A stretch of 35,142 bases of DNA from Lachnospiraceae bacterium (lineage in GTDB: Bacteria > Bacillota > Clostridia > Lachnospirales > Lachnospiraceae), in assembly GCA_021202815.1 (NCBI GenBank), contig JAJQCG010000231.1, positions 1-35,142 of the forward strand, given 5' to 3'. The number at the start of each line of letters is the position of its first letter. The first letter of the stretch is position 1. Below are positions 7,853 through 32,000 of this stretch, one piece after another. The notes beneath the pieces were generated by a model. The model did not search any database. It was not told where the DNA came from and saw nothing but the letters and a program-made list of their open reading frames with translations. The translations under genes and the position numbers were made by a program.

Positions 7853-7881
7853 TTGACATTATAACGGAATTCCGTTATAAT
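7853..7881 (+). promoter_or_regulatory. Promoter with embedded 24-bp perfect palindrome (probable autoregulatory operator)
   Basis: TTGACA (7853-7858), 17-bp spacer, TATAAT (7876-7881); ATTATAACGGAATTCCGTTATAAT (7858..7881) is a perfect palindrome spanning the spacer and the -10. Confidence 0.8.
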
Positions 7882-7927
7882 TTTCAAGACGTCTTTTACA
7901 GTCCGACTGGAAGAGGGAAGGGGCAGT

Positions 7928-8494
7928 ATGTTACGTGACCGGCTGAAAGAGAAAAACATGAGTATTTATCAGTGTTCGAAGCAAAGTGGGATTCCTTATA
8001 CTACGCTCCGGGAGCTGCTCTGTGGCAAGACCAGACTGGCCAACTGTACGGCAGATACCTTATACCGGCTTTCCGTGGCGCTGGATGTTCCCATGGAGGA
8101 GCTTCTTCTGGAGAGCGTCGATTATCGTATCAGCTTTGAAACCTATAAAGGGAATGTATGTCATCAGGTCAAGGACAAGGGGGATCTGGATTTTATTATT
8201 GAGACGCTTGGATCCGGAGATATTCGCCGCTACTGGGAGCGCAGATGGTACCCGGAAGCCTTTTATCTCCTGGCAATGGTAGATTACCTGAGCCGGCTTA
8301 ACGAGCTTCCGCTATGCGGCGATTATAACGATATCCGCGCCTGCTCCCTGAAAGAGCCGCTTTATCCGGGCGATGTGATTTTTTCCGCAAAACTCGACGA
8401 AAAACGGGATCAGAGAGAGCAGTGTGAGAAAGCAGCCATTCCGGAATTCAGACGATTTAATATCATGGAAAGCGAGGTGCGGGATGTCCTTTGA
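7928..8494 (+). CDS. XRE-family HTH protein, probable antitoxin
   Basis: 188 aa; N-terminal HTH (LKEKNMSIYQCSKQSGIPYTTLRELLCGKTRLANCTADTLYRLSVALDVPMEELL); its 3' end overlaps the downstream NTase gene by 11 bp. Confidence 0.7.
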   Translation: MLRDRLKEKNMSIYQCSKQSGIPYTTLRELLCGKTRLANCTADTLYRLSVALDVPMEELLLESVDYRISFETYKGNVCHQVKDKGDLDFIIETLGSGDIRRYWERRWYPEAFYLLAMVDYLSRLNELPLCGDYNDIRACSLKEPLYPGDVIFSAKLDEKRDQREQCEKAAIPEFRRFNIMESEVRDVL

Positions 8495-9191
8495 GGTGCC
8501 GTTCACAAAGGAAAACCTCGATCTATATTTAAAGGAACTGGGAAAAGAATACCGTAGACGAGGGAAGGGCATGCATGCGGAGCTGATTCTGATCGGTGGA
8601 GCCTCCGTCCTGATCAATTATGGTTTTCGCGAAATGACCTATGACATTGATGCTATTTCCATGCCGCCCACGGTGATGAAGGAAGCGGTCAATGCCGTGG
8701 GTGATCGTTTTGGCCTTCCGAACGGCTGGCTGAACATGGATTTTATGCGGACCTCGTCCTACACGCCCCGGCTGGCTGAGTACGCTGTCCATTATAAAAC
8801 CTTTTCCCATGTTCTGGAAGTCCGCACCATAAGGGCGGAATATCTTCTGGCCATGAAGCTGGTTTCCGGGCGAAGATATAAAAAAGATATGTCAGACATT
8901 GTCGGAATTCTCATTGGGCAGGCACGGGCGGGACAGCCTCTGTCTTATGAAAAGATTGACAAGGCAGTTATTGACCTGTACGATGACTGGAGCAGGATAA
9001 ACAGCGATACACGCTCTTTGCTTTTAAAGGCACTGGAAACGCCAAATCTGGAAAAATTATTTTCCGAACAGTGCGCAGAAGAAGCAAGGTCGAAGGAGGT
9101 AATCGCGGAAATTGTGCAGAAATCTCCCGGTGTCGTCAGGGAGAACAATATACAGGAGATCATAGCGGCAGCACTGGAGAAAAAGAAGTGA
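8484..9191 (+). CDS. Nucleotidyltransferase-like protein (DUF6036/AbiEii-like), probable toxin
   Basis: ATG at 8484, in frame with ORF 8424..9191. LILIGGASVLINYGFREMTYDIDAISMP resembles the NTase GG(A)S...D-D motif, followed by EYLLAMKLVSGRRYKKDMSDIVGIL. Confidence 0.65.
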   Translation: MSFEVPFTKENLDLYLKELGKEYRRRGKGMHAELILIGGASVLINYGFREMTYDIDAISMPPTVMKEAVNAVGDRFGLPNGWLNMDFMRTSSYTPRLAEYAVHYKTFSHVLEVRTIRAEYLLAMKLVSGRRYKKDMSDIVGILIGQARAGQPLSYEKIDKAVIDLYDDWSRINSDTRSLLLKALETPNLEKLFSEQCAEEARSKEVIAEIVQKSPGVVRENNIQEIIAAALEKKK

Positions 9192-9212: not shown

Positions 9213-9713
9213 ATGGAACGACTGCTGGCCGCCATGATGGAATATGACAAAGGAGATCCGAAGCGCATTCAGCACTTTATCAAGGTGTACGAGTTTGCGC
9301 GGACGATTGGAAAGCTGGAGGGGCTCGACGAGCACACGCAGTTTATACTTGAGAGCGCTGCGGTCGTGCACGACATCGGCATTCATCCGGCGGAGGAAAA
9401 ATATGGAGACTGTTCCGGAAAGTATCAGGAGCTCGAAGGGCCGCCGGAGGCGGAGAAGCTGCTGAAAAGCCTTGGCTGGCCGGAGGATGTGACGGAGCGG
9501 GTATCTTATCTGGTAGGGCATCATCACACGTATTCGCAGATCGAGGGCAGCGACTATCAGATCCTCGTGGAGGCGGATTTCCTGGTCAATCTGTTCGAGG
9601 ATGCGTCTTCCGAAAAGACACAGAGAAGCGTTTACCGGAAAATCTTCCGCACGCATGCGGGAAAGCGGCTCTTCGCGGCGCAGTTCCCGGCGGCGGTGGA
9701 CGAAGCGTCATGA
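9213..9713 (+). CDS. HD-domain phosphohydrolase
   Basis: 166 aa; H...AAVVHDIGI...VGHHHTY pattern; stop overlaps the next start (ATGA, 9710-9713). Confidence 0.8.
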   Translation: MERLLAAMMEYDKGDPKRIQHFIKVYEFARTIGKLEGLDEHTQFILESAAVVHDIGIHPAEEKYGDCSGKYQELEGPPEAEKLLKSLGWPEDVTERVSYLVGHHHTYSQIEGSDYQILVEADFLVNLFEDASSEKTQRSVYRKIFRTHAGKRLFAAQFPAAVDEAS

Positions 9714-13254: not shown

Positions 13255-13884
13255 GTGGCGCGTATTTACGGTTACGTGAGGGTTTCTACAAAATATCAGA
13301 ATGAGGACAGGCAGATGATTGCCATGAAGGAGATGCAGATTCCCTCAGGAAATATTTATATGGACAAGCAGTCCGGGAAGGATTTTGACCGGCCGAAGTA
13401 TCAGGAGCTGCTGCATCGGCTGGAGCCGGAGGATCTGATCTATGTAAAGAGTATTGACCGGCTGGGTCGGAATTACGAGGAGATACTGGAGCAGTGGCGG
13501 ATTCTGACGAAGGAGAAGGGCTCGGACGTCGTTGTGATCGATATGCCGCTTCTGGACACGCGCCGTGGCAAGGATCTGCTGGGGACATTCATCGCCGACA
13601 TTATGCTGCAGCTTCTATCTTTCGTCGCGGAAAATGAGAGGAGCAATATCCGGCAGCGCCAGGCGGAGGGAATCGCGGCGGCAAGGCTGCGCGGCGTGCG
13701 CTTCGGACGACCGCAGAAGGAAGCACCGGAGGATTTTTCTCAGATTGTGCGTGCCTGGGAGGAAAAGAGTATCAGCTTCGAGGAGGCGGTAGCGTGCAGT
13801 GGATTGAGCGAATCCACCTTTTACCGCCGCCTGAGGGAAATGCGGCAGAACAATAAATCAGCTGTCAAAAAGTGTACTTTCTGA
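13255..13884 (+). CDS. Serine recombinase, Hin/Pin-type DNA invertase/resolvase
   Basis: GTG start after aaaggagg; YVRVSTKYQNEDRQ (catalytic Ser), SIDRLGRNYEE, ENERSNIRQRQAEGI helix, C-terminal HTH; 209 aa. Stop codon lies inside palindromic site A. Confidence 0.9.
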   Translation: MARIYGYVRVSTKYQNEDRQMIAMKEMQIPSGNIYMDKQSGKDFDRPKYQELLHRLEPEDLIYVKSIDRLGRNYEEILEQWRILTKEKGSDVVVIDMPLLDTRRGKDLLGTFIADIMLQLLSFVAENERSNIRQRQAEGIAAARLRGVRFGRPQKEAPEDFSQIVRAWEEKSISFEEAVACSGLSESTFYRRLREMRQNNKSAVKKCTF

Positions 13885-14075: not shown

Positions 14076-14864
14076 ATGAGTTGGGAATGGCTGGTGGTCC
14101 TCGTGATCATGCTGGCGATGAATGTGTTCCTTTTTCTCGTCTTCTGGACGGCCGTGCAGCGGGCGGACAGTCAGGTTCGTGAGATATTTTATCGAAAGCT
14201 TCAGGACATTCACTCCATGTCGAAGGAGAGGATGGAAAAACTGGAACAGACGGAGCGAAGCTGCGAGGAGATGGAAGAGAGGCTCCAGGAGCTTCAGGAT
14301 GAGGAACGCAAGCGAAAGAAAGTACAGGTTTATCAGACGGCGGGGGCACAGAAGCTCCAGCCCCTTAGTGCTGTGAGCGTCTCTTCGGCGAGGTTCCGGA
14401 ACACGGAGATAAAGGAGCAGTATCGCTACATCCGGGATCATATGGATATCGATCTGAACGAGGTCGTGCGCGCCTTTACCGCCGGGCTTTCTGACGAACC
14501 GTCGGATGCGGAGGCCTATGAGACTCTGGCCGGGAAATTTCCCTTCGAAGCGCGCTATGAGCTTCTGACGCTCTCGGAGGAGGATCAGGCGCAGGTGCTC
14601 TTCGCGGCGCTCTCCGATACGGAGCGTTCGATTCTGAACGACTATCTGGAGACCTGTGGGGACGGCAGCCTCGACGTGCTGTCGTTTTTTGACTATGTAG
14701 AGTCTGAGGCCAGGCTCCGGGACGGAACGATTCAGGTGTATACCGGAGACCGGGAGAATCCGCTGACGATTCAGGATACACGGGTACGCTGGGCACGCGA
14801 TCCGGGGATCTGCGAGGGCTGCAGGATCCGTTATCGGGACTGCCTGTACGACTACAGTCTGTAA
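14076..14864 (+). CDS. N-terminally anchored coiled-coil protein, topologically like an F-ATPase b (b/delta) peripheral stalk
   Basis: 262 aa; TM at residues about 4-25 (WLVVLVIMLAMNVFLFLVFW), long charged coiled coil, then a C-terminal domain with CEGCRIRYRDC. Sits directly upstream of the alpha-like gene. Confidence 0.6.
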   Translation: MSWEWLVVLVIMLAMNVFLFLVFWTAVQRADSQVREIFYRKLQDIHSMSKERMEKLEQTERSCEEMEERLQELQDEERKRKKVQVYQTAGAQKLQPLSAVSVSSARFRNTEIKEQYRYIRDHMDIDLNEVVRAFTAGLSDEPSDAEAYETLAGKFPFEARYELLTLSEEDQAQVLFAALSDTERSILNDYLETCGDGSLDVLSFFDYVESEARLRDGTIQVYTGDRENPLTIQDTRVRWARDPGICEGCRIRYRDCLYDYSL

Positions 14865-14893
14865 GAAAAGACGAAAGAACGAGGAAGGACAGT

Positions 14894-16216
14894 ATGGAAC
14901 AGTATGTAGAGAACCTGGTACAGGATACCATCAGGAAGATCAAGAATAAAGAGAATGTCCAGCGGATGGGCCGCGTTCTGAAGGTACAGAACTACATTCT
15001 CGAGGTCAGCGGCCTGGAGGACGTGAGCTTCTATGAGCGCGTCGTGATCGGCGAGGGCAGCGAGGGATACGTGAATGGTATTCGTAGAAACGAGGTCACC
15101 GTAGCCATCGTGCGCCGCTGCGGCGACATCTATGTGAACGATCAGGTCATCGCGACCGGCGAGACCTTCCGCGTCAGCTTTGCGGAGGAGTCGCTGGGCC
15201 ATGTGACCGACCTTTTCGGCGTGGACCGCTCCTGCGGTAAGACTTTTGAGGAGCTGATCAGCCTGAATATTGAGAATCCGAATATCCCGATCATGGATCG
15301 TACCGCCGTGTGCCGCCCGCTTGAGACCGGTATCGCCGGCGTAGATCTGATCTATCCGATCGGCAAGGGTCAGCGTCAGCTGATCATCGGCGACAAGAAG
15401 ACCGGCAAGACGCAGATCGCCCTCGACACGATCGTCAACCAGAAGGGCAAGGACGTGATCTGTATCTACGTCTCCGTCGGCAAGACGAAGAAAAATGTAA
15501 AGACGCTCTATGCGGAGCTCATGCGCCGCGGGGCGATGGAGTATACCCATATCCTGTGCGCCTTCAACGACGATACGCTGCCGGTCATCTTCCTGACCCC
15601 CTACGCGGGCGTATCGATCGCGGAGCATTATCTCATGCAGGGAAAGGACGTGCTCGTCGTCATCGACGATCTCTCCCGCCATGCGGACGCCTACCGCGAG
15701 ATCAGCCTGCTGACCGGAAAGGCGCCGGGGCGCGACGCCTACCCGCCCGATATTTTTTACACGCATTCCCGTATGCTCGAGAAGGGCTGCCAGCACAGGA
15801 ACGGCGGCTCGATCACGATCCTGCCGATCGTCGAGACGCGGGGCGGCGATATTACCGATTATATATCGACCAATATTATCTCGATCACGGATGGACAGCT
15901 CGTGCTCTCGAAGAAGAATTTCGATAAGGGCGAGAAGCCCGCGATCAGCTACGGCCTGTCCGTGTCCCGTCTGGGCGGCGCGGTGCAGACGCCGGAGGTC
16001 AAAAAGCTCGGCGCGCGCGTGCGGCGCGAGCTCCTGAGCTACCTGGAGACGAGAGCCGTCTACGAGCTTGCAAATGTAGACGAGATGAGCCCGGAGATGC
16101 AGGCGCGCATCCGCCGCGGCGGCCGTCTCCTCGCGGGGCTTGGCCAGTACAAGTATTCCCCGATGAGCCATGAGGAGATCATCCGGCGCTTCGAGGATAT
16201 CTACAGTCAGGAGTAG
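14894..16216 (+). CDS. F1-ATPase alpha-subunit-like protein
   Basis: 440 aa; Walker A GDKKTGKT, LVVIDDLSRHADAYREISLLTGKAPGRDAYPPDIFYTHSRMLE, SITILPIVETRGGDITDYISTNIISITDGQ, arginine-finger region YGLSVSRLGGAVQ. Confidence 0.92.
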   Translation: MEQYVENLVQDTIRKIKNKENVQRMGRVLKVQNYILEVSGLEDVSFYERVVIGEGSEGYVNGIRRNEVTVAIVRRCGDIYVNDQVIATGETFRVSFAEESLGHVTDLFGVDRSCGKTFEELISLNIENPNIPIMDRTAVCRPLETGIAGVDLIYPIGKGQRQLIIGDKKTGKTQIALDTIVNQKGKDVICIYVSVGKTKKNVKTLYAELMRRGAMEYTHILCAFNDDTLPVIFLTPYAGVSIAEHYLMQGKDVLVVIDDLSRHADAYREISLLTGKAPGRDAYPPDIFYTHSRMLEKGCQHRNGGSITILPIVETRGGDITDYISTNIISITDGQLVLSKKNFDKGEKPAISYGLSVSRLGGAVQTPEVKKLGARVRRELLSYLETRAVYELANVDEMSPEMQARIRRGGRLLAGLGQYKYSPMSHEEIIRRFEDIYSQE

Positions 16217-16219
16217 TCT

Positions 16220-18381
<2,162 letters not shown>

Positions 18382-18386
18382 AGAAA

Positions 18387-18824
18387 ATGGCAGCAAGACC
18401 CGGCAAAAAGAAGCAGGAGACGGAAGCGGCGGCGACGGAGCAGCCGAAGAAGTCCCGGAAGGAAAGAAAAGCAGAAAAGCAGCGGGAGCAGGATGACAGC
18501 GGGCGGCGCATGCGCGCGCGCGTGATCAGCATCCGCGACGGCGTGGAGGACTTTGAGAGTGTGCGCGTCGTCCATGTGGACAGCAGCCGCTACACCCTGA
18601 TGCTCATGCCGGACTACACGCCGTCGATCGGCGAGGTGGAGGGCACGGTTCGTATCGTAACCGACGAACGAGTGGAGACCTATGAGCGGGTGAAGGGCTT
18701 CTTCATGCTGCGGGACAATGAATTTCAGCTTCTTGTAAAAGAAGAGTACGCGGTGCCCGCGGAGGCGGCGCAGGAGCCGGAAGGCGGAGAGCTGGAGTTT
18801 ATAGACCTGGAGGGGCAGACATGA
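18387..18824 (+). CDS. Epsilon-subunit-like protein (beta-sandwich only) with basic N-terminal extension
   Basis: 145 aa after the beta-like gene in the epsilon position; YTLMLMPDYTPSIGEVEGTVRIV... compatible with the epsilon N-domain; N-terminal KKKQ...KKSRKERKAEKQREQ. Confidence 0.5.
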   Translation: MAARPGKKKQETEAAATEQPKKSRKERKAEKQREQDDSGRRMRARVISIRDGVEDFESVRVVHVDSSRYTLMLMPDYTPSIGEVEGTVRIVTDERVETYERVKGFFMLRDNEFQLLVKEEYAVPAEAAQEPEGGELEFIDLEGQT

Positions 18825-19439
18825 GAGACTGGACAGTTTATGTGGTACCCTATGAGGGCTATATTCTACTGGTTCTGGCGCTCGGTCTGCTGATTCTGTT
18901 CTCCTCCTTTCTGCGGATGCGGCAGTTCCGCTTCCAGGGACTGAAGAAGGGGAAATGGTATTACTGCTTCTTTTATGGACTTGGCAATCGCGAGCTCATC
19001 TGTCTGACAGCGGGTACGAGCAGGCTGCTTCTGGTGATTGCAATCGTCCTCTGCGGGCTGGAGCTGCGGCTGACTCATATCGTCTGCCTGCTGCTTCTGA
19101 CGCTGGTCTGGCAGACGGACACGAGAGAAGGAAAACAGATTCTGGCTGCGCTGTTTTCCGATATCATTCAGGTGGCGGGAACCTGCGCGGGGCTGTTTGT
19201 TTATCAGACGCTGCTCCGCTATATGGCGGATATCCGTTCCGCCCTGGATATACGAATTACCAGCATCATGCTGGGGATATTTATTATCATTTATAACGCA
19301 GTGCTGTGGCTGAACCGTCTGCCGCAGCTGGGCGAGAGAAGCCTTATGCAAAGAGAGCATAAGGAAAAGAGACGATTTGGAAAGAGACTGAAGGGAAAGA
19401 GACTGAAGGAAAAGAGACTGGCAGGAAAGGAGAAGGGCT

Positions 19440-19453
<14 letters not shown>
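18821..19453 (+). CDS. Polytopic membrane protein of unknown function with highly basic C-terminal tail
   Basis: 210 aa, about 4-5 hydrophobic segments; overlaps the upstream gene by ATGA; tail KEKRRFGKRLKGKRLKEKRLAGKEKGYEEA. Confidence 0.7.
19380..19424 (+). repeat. Three tandem 15-bp repeats encoding a basic tail
   Basis: gaaagagactgaagg / gaaagagactgaagg / aaaagagactggcag. Confidence 0.75.
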
Positions 19454-26102
<6,649 letters not shown>

Positions 26103-26135
26103 GCAGAGGTTCGAAGCGAAAAAGGAGGATATCGT

Positions 26136-28037
26136 ATGAGAAAATTGAGCGGAAAGGCCAAGAGCGGCTTCGCCCTCTTCAGCCTGAGCGTATTCCTGAC
26201 TCTTGTCCTGTTCGGCATGTCGGTGGTGCGGGTGGTAAGCGCCCAGAGTGCATCCTACACGCTGACGGCGGGCAGCATCGTCTATGACAATACTTACAGC
26301 AGCCAGTATCTGTCTGGCGGCGGAAGTGTCTATCGGAGCTGGGACTCCAGCTACTATGTGGAGCAGGCCAGTGAGGACAGCATCAAGCTGGGCACGAGCA
26401 CGGTGGCCTATGAGCCGACTTTGTCTGCGGTGACCGTCTACGGCGGCGGCTACCGCTATGCGTCGGACGGCAGTGTCTATGTGCTGGATGATTATTATCA
26501 GCAGACTGATCTGGAATCCATGGGACTTGTCATGCTGAGTGAGGATCACTACCTGATCACGGGAAGAAATATTTCGGTGAGCTCCGGCGAGGCGAATACC
26601 GATGATTTCCTGTATATCGTCGTGGATCAGGCCGGGAATTCCAGACTGCTGAATGATGAGATCAATGTAAAGGTACTGGACGACCTGCTGGTGACGGGAG
26701 ATTCCTTCTCCCTGGATCTGGCGGCGGGAACAGTCACCTTTGGTTCCATGACCTACAGTCTGGCCGACGCGGCGGCAGCGGCGGCGGATGAGGGCGGCGA
26801 GGTTTATGATATCAGTATTTCCGGCGGAGATGGCGGCAGCGGCGGCAGCGGTGGAACCGGCGGCAGCGGCGGAACCGGCGGGACTGGTGGAACCGGCGGG
26901 ACTGGCGGAACCGGTGGAACCGGCGGCAGCGGCGGCGCAGGCGGCGCAGGCGGGATCGGAGGAACGGGTGGTTCCGGTACAAGCGGCAGCAGCGGGCTGA
27001 CCCAGGAGGAGATGGAAGCGGTCTCCAACATGTATCTGACCTCCGTCACAGCGGGAACGACCTCCCTGACAATCAATTTTTACGCTTACGATCCCTATTC
27101 CATTTACGGAGTGATCTGTTTTGACATTGTGGATGTGACGGATCCGGACACTGTGGTGAAGACGGTCTATGCAGACCCGTCGGAGACCTCCATTACTGTA
27201 TCGGATCTGAATCCGGATACGACCTACAGCATTAAGATGTACTATGTGGGCGGCCTGGACGAAGTCGTGCAGCGCGACTTCATGCGGGCGACGACCAGCG
27301 ATGAGAACGCGTCCATGACGATTACGGCCATTACGGAGAATACAGTCACCTTCACGTTGTATCTGGACGAGGATGTGAACTATAAGAGCGCTACTGTGAC
27401 TCTGTATGATGTGAGTGGTTCCGCACATTATGAGGTCGGCGAGCTGACTGTGAGCGGCAGTTCCAACCTCAAGGCGGCGAAATCAGATGATGGCCTGAGC
27501 AGCCTGACCGTGACGATTGATACCAGTAATGCAAGTCAGATCACGACCTTCCAGGGTTCGCTGATCGCGCTGGGCCTGAATGTGGTCTACACAGACGGCA
27601 ATGAAAGTAGCTCGGAGATCGCATGGGTGCGCACTGCGAACCCGTACGAGTCGGAAACCTCAACGGCGGTCACCACTTCCCTGGTGGAGGAGCTGATCAG
27701 CACCGTGAATGAACTGCAGGCGCGGATTACCGCGCTGGAGGGAAACGCGTCCGCCGATGCGGGAAGTACATCTTCTGACGATTCCGGCAGCTCGAGCTCG
27801 AATGAAAGCACGAGTAGCAGCGGCAGCGGAAGCTCCGCCGCAAGTACGACCAGCAGCGGAAGTTCTGCCGCCGTCACAGGCAGCAGCGAAAGCTCTGCCA
27901 GTACGGGAAACAGCACTGAAAGCACCGCCGAGGGAAGTGACAGTGGAAGTGAAAGCGGCAGCACAGAGTCCGAAAGTGCCGACAACGGCGAGACCAGCGC
28001 GGCAAACACGTCCGACAGCGGAAAAAACCTGGAATAG
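26136..28037 (+). CDS. Secreted surface protein (P2) with Gly-Gly-X linker, Fn3-like domains and Ser-rich C-terminus
   Basis: 633 aa; signal/anchor MRKLSGKAKSGFALFSLSVFLTLVLFGMSVVRVVSA; (GGX)n tract; DLNPDTTYSIKMYYVG Fn3-like; RBS aaggagg. Confidence 0.8.
   Translation: MRKLSGKAKSGFALFSLSVFLTLVLFGMSVVRVVSAQSASYTLTAGSIVYDNTYSSQYLSGGGSVYRSWDSSYYVEQASEDSIKLGTSTVAYEPTLSAVTVYGGGYRYASDGSVYVLDDYYQQTDLESMGLVMLSEDHYLITGRNISVSSGEANTDDFLYIVVDQAGNSRLLNDEINVKVLDDLLVTGDSFSLDLAAGTVTFGSMTYSLADAAAAAADEGGEVYDISISGGDGGSGGSGGTGGSGGTGGTGGTGGTGGTGGTGGSGGAGGAGGIGGTGGSGTSGSSGLTQEEMEAVSNMYLTSVTAGTTSLTINFYAYDPYSIYGVICFDIVDVTDPDTVVKTVYADPSETSITVSDLNPDTTYSIKMYYVGGLDEVVQRDFMRATTSDENASMTITAITENTVTFTLYLDEDVNYKSATVTLYDVSGSAHYEVGELTVSGSSNLKAAKSDDGLSSLTVTIDTSNASQITTFQGSLIALGLNVVYTDGNESSSEIAWVRTANPYESETSTAVTTSLVEELISTVNELQARITALEGNASADAGSTSSDDSGSSSSNESTSSSGSGSSAASTTSSGSSAAVTGSSESSASTGNSTESTAEGSDSGSESGSTESESADNGETSAANTSDSGKNLE
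26823..26996 (+). repeat. Gly-Gly-Ser/Thr coding tandem repeat
   Basis: GGDGGSGGSGGTGGSGGTGGTGGTGGTGGTGGTGGSGGAGGAGGIGGTGG. Confidence 0.85.
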
Positions 28038-28050
28038 ACAACTAGTTTGA

Positions 28051-28311
<261 letters not shown>

Positions 28312-28323
28312 GGAGGCATTCTT

Positions 28324-29041
28324 TTGAATCAGATTCGCACAAAGTCGGGGAAAAAAGAGAATCTTGATTGCGACCGGGGCCTTTCTGGCCCTGGTGGTTG
28401 TCGTATTTCTGGCCATCTGGTATTTCCGAACGGTGGAGGTGCTGGCGGTCACGGAGCCGATGTACACCTATGTGGGAGGCATGATCAGCGAGTATCCGGA
28501 TGGATTCACACTGCGTCATGAGGACGACACTATGTATGTGGTCGTAGATGAGGACAGGCAGTATCTGCCGGACGTGATGTTTTACTGTGCGGATCGGGAT
28601 GCGGTGATTCTGCAGGAGACCATGGTCTGGAATCAGAAGGCTGCGGGCGTACAGCTTCGGGTAGATTATTTCAGCGAAGTGCGGTTGGAGGGCGGCGTGG
28701 TCGTGATCGAGGACGGCGACGCGACCGTGAGCAATCCGGAAGGTTTTCTGCACAACGGAAGCAATACATATCTGCTGTTGGAGCCGGCGACTCTTACGTG
28801 GAATGATGAGAGCGTGGAGCTGAGCGCCCTGTCCACGGTGACCGCGGAGTACGGAAGCCTCCTGGAGGTCTACAATTACGAAGAAAACACGGCTTTTTCC
28901 GAGGATCTGACAGACAGCGAGACGAAACTGGTCTTTTCAGACGGGGCGGAGGTTCTGGTGGTGACAGATCAGCTGAAGCTGACCAACGGGAGCTGGTATC
29001 TGCTGATCACGGATCCCAGTGTTCTGAATGATATTGAATAG
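28324..29041 (+). pseudogene. N-terminally anchored extracytoplasmic protein (P3); apparent frameshift at the A6 tract 28351-28356
   Basis: TTG at 28324 with aggagg (28311-28316) reads MNQIRTKSGKK then shifts out of frame; ORF 28364..29041 continues as RILIATGAFLALVVVVFLAIWYF... Removing one A joins the two. Confidence 0.6.
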
Positions 29042-29062
29042 GGAAGAAAGGAGGAGATTAAT

Positions 29063-32000
29063 ATGAAGAAGGTAATCGCGTTCGCGCTAGTGATTCTCTG
29101 CGCGCTGTTTATGGTACAGGCCTATGCGCTGACCGAGGTCGCCGTGCTGACGGAGGACGGTTACGCGGTATCGGATGATGTCTCTGCCTCGCTGAAAAGC
29201 GGGTCCGCGGAGGAAGTGGAGCTGCAGGCGGTGAGCGTGGACGATCAGGTCTGGCAGCGCGGCTCCTGGTATTATGTCGGGGAATCGAAGGAAAAAGTCT
29301 CCTCCCTCTATCCGTTTTATCTGTATGGTGGGACGGCGGTCATGACCCTTTCCACGGACATGACGCTCTACGATGAAAATTTTGACACCTTCAGCACGAT
29401 CGAGGGTATGTATGTCAGCGACGGGACTGCCTTTTTGTCTGATCACAGCAAAACGGATGATGACTCCTATCTCTTTCTCAAGACCAGCAACAGCCTCTTC
29501 CTGAATCTGGCGGAGACGACGGTTTATCAGACGTTGGGCGAAACAACGGTGCCACTGAACAGTATCCTGTATATCGCGGAGGATATGCTGCACTATTACA
29601 GCTACAGCAACGGGGAGCTTGTCTATGGCGAGGCCAATGTGCAGGGCTCGACGGTGTCCATCGGCGGGCAGGAAATGAGCTGGACGGAGCTTCTGAAGGC
29701 GCTGGGACTGTTGTCGGACGGCACGTCCGCGGCGGATTTGGATGATGAGGAGGAGCCGGAGACGGAGATCGTCACGGCCGCGGACGGATCGGTGCAGATC
29801 CTGGTAAGCGGGGGCGCTTCCTTCGGAAAATTGGAAGCCACAAAGGACGCTCTCAGCGAGGAGGCGGATGGGGAGGAGGATTCCTCTGCGTCGGGCAGCG
29901 GTGCGGATAGCTCTGCGGCTTCGGGCAGCAGCTCCGCAGACGGAGATGCCGGTTCATCCGGAAGCGACAGTTCTTCTGACAGCAGTGCCTCTGACAGCGA
30001 TTCATCCGGAAGCAGCAGTTCATCCGGAAGCGGAAGTGCCTCCGGAAGTGGGAATTCATCTGGGAGCGGAAGTTCGTCCGGAAGCGGAAGTTCGTCCGGA
30101 AGCGGAAGTTCTGCAGGGAGCAGTAGCTCCGCAGGCAGCACCCAGGACGGAACCGGCGAGGAGGAGGATTCCTCCATCACGCTTCCTTCGATTACTCTGT
30201 CGAATTTCCAGGAGGGAGTCTATACGATCAGTATGGACGTCGCGATTGACGACCCCTCCGGCGTGTTGAAGAAGGTCGTTGTGGAGGCCTACTGGGATCA
30301 GGATGGTGACGGAGAGATTGAGACAGATGAACTGGGAAGCCGCAAATCCATCAAGACGGATGGGACGCTGACCCTGTCCTCGATCCCACCCGGAACCACG
30401 GTGAAGCTGGTGGGAAAATATTACTATTACGACAATGGTGTGAAGAAGCTGGCGGAGTTTTACAGCGAGTTCACGACCTCATCGCTGGATCTTACGACCA
30501 AGACCATAGACTATCTGCCGCCGATCTATATAGATTTTACGACGGCCTTAGGTGACGATGACATATATCACTCCAATTATATCACACTCTTTGATCTGAA
30601 TGTGAGCGGACCGACGACGCTGCTGAACAATATTTACCGTCTGAGTGTAAAGCTGACGTCGCAGACTGATGAAAATGATACTTATGAATTTTACATCAAT
30701 AAATCGACGCTGAAAAAGTATATGAACGCGGAGGGCGATGCTCTGGACTGGAGTACTGTGATCAAGAGCTATTCCCTCAGCAGCAATACGAAGTATGACA
30801 TTGAAGTGAGCGCCAAGGACTCGTTCGGTAATAATCTGAAGATTCTGAGCGGGACTTATGATGCGGAAAAGAACAACTGGGATGATGGCAGTCTGTCAGG
30901 AGACTACGACTATCGGAAAATAGCCGGCGAAAATGAAGAGGACAGCGATGATACAAATGATAATATCATCTACAGCTCCAGCCAGACCAGTAAGCTGACG
31001 CCTACAGCGGAGCTGACGGTGGTGAACAATTCTCTGGGCAGCCAGTCCATCACGATCCGCGTGACTGACACGGACGGCGCGCTGGCTGATGCGGAGGAGG
31101 GCGATCAGCTCTGGTTCTCCATCTATGAGAACGGTTCAACTGTAGCGGAGACGCTGTGGTTCACCGGTACCAACGCGGGAACAGATCTTGAGGATGAAGA
31201 TGGAAATACACAGTATTACCAGAAGGTACCCTTCTCCACCTCGGACGCAACTGCGGTGAAGGGTGAGGACGGCGTGTGGGAGTTCACCTGGACGCTGGGC
31301 GATGATGAGGACTACAACCTGGTGGTGGGGACGACCTACCGGCTTGAGGTGACGGCCTGCTATGACCTGGCGGATCGGGGAGATGATGTCGATAATCTGG
31401 TCACGGATACAATCGCCAGCGGCCTGTTCACCACCACGGACTTAAGCGCCTACGGCAAGGTGGTCTACTCGCTCTCGAGCGCCTCCGATTATCTGACGGA
31501 AGACGGCGCCCGCCTGTCCGTACAGCTCAATACGACCAGGACGAACGAAAATCTGGTTCCCTTCCTGAGCGCGGCCACGCTGACGGTCACTGACCGCACG
31601 AGCGGGGACACAGTATATACGATCAACCTCACGCGTGAGATGTTTGAAACGGACGATCCCAATGCCGAGTGGGTTACCCTGGATGAGGATGAAGGCAAAT
31701 ACATGCTGAATGTGGACATCCTGGATGCGAATGGAGAAGTGGTAGAAAATGGGGTCACTCTTTATCTGGGGACAAGTTCCTGGAATGAAGATGAAACGCC
31801 CTGGGAATACCTCTTTGACGCGGACGGAGCAGGCGTGCTGTGGCTCTGCTTTGATGACCTTGACAGCGCCATGTCCTACCAGCTCTCTGTCACAACCACA
31901 GCGACTACCATTGCGGTGTCCGCGGAGGAGAATGGAGAGGGCGCCTACACAGCGACTGCTGATGAGAAGACTCACAATGTGGACAGCAGTACAAGCTCTT

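Follow-up and report, generated by a model that had tools for sequence, protein, structure and literature searches.

An overlapping pair of genes in a Lachnospiraceae contig, encoding a helix-turn-helix (HTH) protein and a nucleotidyltransferase (NTase) of the family DUF6036, is likely to form an autorepressed, type II-like toxin-antitoxin module in which the NTase would be the toxin. The contig (JAJQCG010000231.1, 35,142 nucleotides) was analysed at its full length and is called the window below. In keeping with type II systems, the two genes form an overlapping operon with the putative antitoxin gene first, the putative antitoxin has a DNA-binding domain and, by its conservation footprint, the operon has an operator of its own. 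The assignment is a comparative one, drawn from homologous loci, family models and predicted structures.

Table 1. Features of the module and of related modules; coordinates refer to the window unless a locus is named.
Feature	Position or locus	Strand	Basis
Sigma-70-type promoter, TTGACA-17-TATAAT	7853..7881	+	Read directly; position shared by nearly all homologous loci
Perfect 24-bp palindrome with core CGG-N4-CCG; inferred operator of the HTH protein	7858..7881	.	Footprint and operator-only search
Putative antitoxin/repressor, 188 aa: Cro/C1-type HTH (residues 1-61) and helical C-terminal domain (residues 70-188)	7928..8494	+	Pfam, alignment, AlphaFold2
11-bp gene overlap	8484..8494	+	Kept in most homologous loci
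Inferred toxin, 235 aa, DUF6036 nucleotidyltransferase	8484..9191	+	Pfam, invariant residues, hhalign
HipA-like kinase modules with the same HTH and promoter-operator	L078, L079, L082, L182, L190, L192, L194-L196, L201, L204		

Gene pair, promoter and palindrome

An earlier note on this DNA had described an HTH gene overlapping an NTase-like gene by 11 bp, and this arrangement is confirmed. Homologues were gathered as 44 relatives from a scan of genome contigs and as matches in 14 of 98 related genomes searched. Close relatives for which the upstream sequence is available (about 50 Clostridia loci) all have the HTH gene directly upstream of the NTase gene and in the same orientation, usually with an overlap of exactly 11 bp. 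Comparison of the window with locus L002 gives dN/dS values of 0.05 for the HTH gene and 0.11 for the NTase gene, which indicates purifying selection on both. The promoter with its dyad is found again, as is the 11-bp overlap, at most homologous loci, and both genes are under purifying selection, so the combination of pair and operator is more than chance. Judged from these sequences, the HTH and NTase genes travel as one unit across dozens of gut bacteria.

The same note had placed a perfect palindrome over the spacer and -10 element of a consensus promoter, and its reading is correct to the base. The -35 hexamer occupies 7853-7858 and the -10 hexamer 7876-7881, at a spacing of 17 bp. The palindrome, ATTATAACGGAATTCCGTTATAAT, is a perfect 12+12 repeat that begins at the final base of the -35 element and spans the entire spacer as well as the -10 element. 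It occurs once in the window, where shuffled sequences give an expectation of 0.00, and a pattern search of the 2.76-Mb genome for its core returned one further occurrence, with two mismatches.

Comparison with the homologous loci reveals a footprint of symmetry. Nearly all of them carry TTGACA-17-TATAAT upstream of the pair, together with a dyad placed in register with that of the window; in most homologues this dyad is imperfect, with CGG-N4-CCG at its centre, and the perfect palindrome is a peculiarity of the window's lineage. Changes within the dyad are symmetric and compensatory, ACGG..CCGT in some sites corresponding to TCGG..CCGA in others (A/T to T/A at positions 7/18). Across 34 distinct sites, which come from related sequences, we count 301 paired cells against 275 +/- 4.5 in 10,000 column shuffles, and C8 and G9 are conserved in 33 of the 34. 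Promoters with a TATAAT-type -10 element are rich in A+T, and partial palindromes can arise in them by chance; the palindrome might then be a coincidence in front of two unrelated genes. We give this explanation practically no weight: the footprint refutes it, since the half of the dyad that lies in the spacer is conserved although the promoter imposes no constraint there, the shuffled expectation is nil, and the operator by itself retrieves the module, as described below.

The operator and HipA-type modules

The DNA pattern of the operator alone was run against 391 genomes of the class, and its reversed form served as control. The operator pattern matched in 31 genomes, compared with two matches for the reversed one. 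At 17 of 30 operator loci inspected, this HTH protein starts within about 50 bp, and all nine exact matches inspected were HTH modules. Together with the footprint, this retrieval of the module from its operator strongly supports, by comparative means, the proposal of the earlier note that the palindrome is the site of autorepression.

Eight of these 17 loci, the window's own genome included, encode the same C-terminal domain followed by a DUF6036 NTase; L198 was confirmed among them. The other nine encode a different C-terminal domain, followed in eight cases by a kinase-like gene; the remaining one, L179, has an intact antitoxin but has apparently lost most of the kinase gene. Homologous kinase genes in L078, L079 and L082 match the Pfam family HipA_C. 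The HipA-type modules resemble the one in the window in their HTH domain, in their promoter (TTGACA-17-TATAAT with a CGG-N4-CCG dyad) and in having the antitoxin gene first and the toxin gene directly after it, but differ in the C-terminal domain and in carrying a HipA_C kinase in place of the NTase. Because the operator alone finds both NTase and HipA-like kinase modules, HTH and operator constitute a front end common to two unrelated toxin types.

Cross-regulation between the kinase modules and the NTase modules is possible. A cassette shared by two toxin types and retrievable by its operator sequence alone offers a simple route to toxin-antitoxin discovery in Clostridia and a direct test of such cross-regulation. 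A wider generalization may be entertained as a speculation that we do not favour: DUF6036 would be a broad, hitherto undescribed class of NTase toxins, each with its own interchangeable neutralizer, and in Clostridia one promoter-operator-HTH cassette would be common to these and to HipA-like kinase toxins, so that a single operator code might cross-regulate different toxins within the same cell. The C-terminal domain would then be a new neutralizer fold, and the target of the NTase may be other than the tRNA 3' end.

The two proteins and known systems

The HTH part of the putative antitoxin matches Pfam HTH_26 (E 4e-7 for the window protein), and HTH_26 or HTH_3 is matched in 21 of 21 members. 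The earlier note had not recognized the C-terminal domain, and rightly so: these roughly 120 residues find no convincing Pfam match in any of the 21 homologues. In the alignment, the tail PEFxRFNIxExExRxV, within the last 20 residues, is among the most conserved parts of the protein. An AlphaFold2 model (overall pLDDT 87.6) predicts the C-terminal part as a confident all-helical domain, and a fold search with this model against PDB and BFVD returned matches to the HTH part and none beyond it. The partner protein appears to carry a conserved, putative neutralizer domain that is unnamed in all family libraries searched.

The NTase matches Pfam DUF6036 (PF19502) with an E value of 1e-8 and 35.4 bits against a cut-off of 23.6, and 19 of 19 NTase homologues match this family; hhalign gives a probability of 99.5% to other DUF6036 proteins and 28% to AbiEii. 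Residues G38G39, T52, D54, D56, K125, D135 and D138 are invariant in all 19 sequences and outline an active site of the form G38G39...T52xD54xD56, K125 and D135/D138. Because the alignment holds 19 sequences, the AlphaFold2 model of this protein is limited; it is poor at the active site (pLDDT <50 over residues 39-61), and its comparison with PDB gave no significant fold match, the weak ones including ANT(4). Searching PDB by sequence likewise turned up no relative of this protein. In the literature searched we found no mention of DUF6036 or PF19502 and no described function; this widespread NTase family would gain a concrete, testable role.

The earlier note had likened the pair to AbiE and MenAT. 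The pair appears to share with these systems an NTase-fold toxin with GG...DxD, K and D motifs and an upstream DNA-binding autorepressor, but it belongs to neither of them: its NTase is DUF6036, and its antitoxin lacks an AbiEi domain and combines a Cro/C1 HTH with an unclassified helical domain in place of the AbiEi winged HTH. Searches with AbiEii (PF08843/DUF1814) gave no match to the window NTase at E<=1 and none in the genome; nine of the 19 NTase homologues match AbiEii weakly (best E 0.0013). No AbiEi model stands among the 25 families listed for the 21 antitoxin members.

A comparison with MenT concerns a single residue. The phosphoacceptors of MenT1 (T39, before D41xD43) and MenT3 (S78) lie two residues before DxD (PMC11375011), and similarly T52 here precedes D54xD56 and is invariant in 19 sequences. 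In contrast, the phosphate-binding residue beside the phosphoacceptor, R40 or K79 in MenT, corresponds to Y53. Since this Arg or Lys is replaced by Tyr, phosphorylation of T52 induced by the antitoxin is a prediction only, drawn by analogy, and we regard it as doubtful.

The closest published pair, likened by layout, is Xress-MNTss of Streptococcus suis, whose XRE antitoxin acts as a repressor of its own promoter and also neutralizes an NTase toxin; Xress and the Xress-MNTss complex bind and repress a promoter with palindromes (PMC8406773). Similarly, an XRE-HTH antitoxin gene adjoins an NTase gene in the window and the promoter is palindromic. The two systems differ, as compared by their descriptions, in that MNTss is described as kanamycin-nucleotidyltransferase-like and its operon contains a streptomycin adenylyltransferase gene (PMC8406773). 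MNTss is toxic only when exported to the periplasm (PMC8406773), and the toxicity of XRE-NTase pairs is therefore not fully secure even in this system.

Distribution, decay and proposed mechanism

The module is patchily distributed, as mobile type II systems are: it is present in the 14 of 98 relatives noted above, its insertion sites are empty in others, one copy is carried by a prophage, and no other gene family is conserved beside the pair among 31 loci, except in a few close relatives that have the same insertion site. In four genomes of the same genus, a rubrerythrin gene adjoins an HD-domain gene with no module between them. This HD-domain gene (9213-9713 in the window) was considered as a third component and rejected, because it adjoins rubrerythrin without the module in these sister genomes and no neighbour family recurs elsewhere.

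One of the four empty-site genomes, G008 (L063), keeps a palindromic promoter, TTGACATTGCAGCGGGATTCCGCTACAAT, at about 1397-1425, directly upstream of the HD-domain gene; neither module gene was found in its assembly (88% complete). Two compensated base pairs are among the six changes at this site, for which a simple simulation gives p about 0.018, and on that account the site may be recent or still in use. It may represent a solo operator or a relic of deletion.

Additional copies and relatives were found in several settings. The prophage copy, the one module locus found in IMG/VR, lies beside holin- and endolysin-like genes, as judged from translations. One Lachnospiraceae genome has two module copies about 8 kb apart (L009 and L010, KE159598.1). 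Among plasmid and phage records there is no close relative, but distant DUF6036 proteins with different, unclassified partners do occur. Other DUF6036 NTases (L109-L115, L056, L132-L134, L170-L173), several of them on plasmids, are paired, in units of two genes, with small proteins of other kinds (114, 125 and 160-230 aa); none of the eight such partners tested gave a Pfam match. An orphan C-terminal domain without HTH or NTase was seen at L077:433-807, near a serine recombinase-like gene.

Decay of the module is biased towards the inferred toxin. Six loci (L026, L032, L034, L042, L045 and L054) have a disrupted NTase beside an intact HTH protein, against one locus or none with a broken partner; these numbers are small, and errors in metagenome-assembled genomes can mimic frameshifts. 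Among close relatives with upstream sequence, an intact NTase is always accompanied by an intact C-terminal domain. In L029 the HTH has been lost while the C-terminal domain and the NTase are kept.

This pattern bears on a type VII-like reading with reversed roles, in which the NTase would modify the HTH protein, or its C-terminal domain, and the protein so modified would be the active or toxic partner. HEPN/MNT systems are likewise small two-gene units with an NTase, and in them the NTase is the antitoxin (PMC7641770); the predicted C-terminal domain here is all-helical. However, the partner in the window is a DNA-binding repressor and no HEPN protein is present: none of the 21 members matches HEPN, and Rx4-6H is not among the invariant alignment columns, so membership in HEPN/MNT is rejected and the roles are apparently the reverse of those in that system. 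HTH and C-terminal domain moreover persist without an intact NTase in the six loci, and the C-terminal domain alone in L077, which counts against such roles because a toxin should not persist without its antitoxin. We consider this reading very improbable.

The same decay weighs on the idea of a non-toxic regulatory or small-molecule operon, in which the XRE repressor would sense an antibiotic-like compound and derepress an NTase that inactivates it. Some NTases of the same fold do modify antibiotics, the weak fold matches include ANT(4), and an XRE protein with a neighbouring enzyme also fits drug-inducible resistance. But the closest family is DUF6036 and not ANT or KNTase, and obligate translational overlap, a partner-specific C-terminal domain, loss of the NTase with the partner kept, and a front end common with HipA-like kinases are unusual for resistance genes. 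Such an operon appears unlikely.

Returning to the toxin-antitoxin reading, we propose the following mechanism. A dimer of the HTH protein would bind the palindrome across the -10 element and spacer of its own promoter and keep the operon low, a step for which comparative support is strong. The helical C-terminal domain, probably via its near-invariant tail, would bind and silence the NTase. If the antitoxin were lost or outnumbered, the DUF6036 NTase would become toxic and growth would stop, as suggested by the conservation of its active site and by the precedent of MenT and AbiEii. The enzyme would most likely add nucleotides to RNA, for which tRNA acceptor ends are the best precedent, given by MenT and AbiEii (PMC7725324, PMC11375011); by this analogy a tRNA-type target is plausible, and we advance it tentatively, at somewhat less than even confidence. 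HTH and operator make up a portable front end, which HipA-like kinase modules employ as well, with another C-terminal domain.

Anti-phage defence by abortive infection, with infection freeing the NTase to modify tRNA, is compatible with the toxin-antitoxin reading; as the main role of the module it has a lesser, though real, chance of being correct. AbiE is an example of an NTase toxin-antitoxin system that protects against phages (PMC7725324), one homologue sits in a prophage beside lysis genes, and the only defence-like neighbour seen, a SIR2-like domain protein (L014:4792-6636), directly follows one copy. On the other side, no PADLOC model matched (the HTH protein hit the generic HTH_VI at E 0.009, the NTase none), several contexts inspected are housekeeping ones (ribosomal S2/EF-Ts, tRNA synthetase, UvrA-like), and IMG/VR yielded that one locus and no more. 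The earlier note had called the pair a toxin-antitoxin/defence module. Its toxin-antitoxin half is borne out by obligate pairing, the footprint, operator-only retrieval, empty sites and toxin-biased decay; the defence half, one prophage-borne copy aside, is left unsupported, with no PADLOC match and no defence-island context.

Elsewhere in the window, positions 14076-31442 hold an unusual F-type-ATPase-like cluster (alpha, gamma, beta and c-like subunits, identified by eye from translations), interleaved with giant Ser/Thr/Gly-rich proteins of 2220 aa and 633 aa. A serine recombinase, resolvase/invertase-like by eye, lies at 13255-13884, between a gene for a cysteine-rich protein and the ATPase-like cluster.
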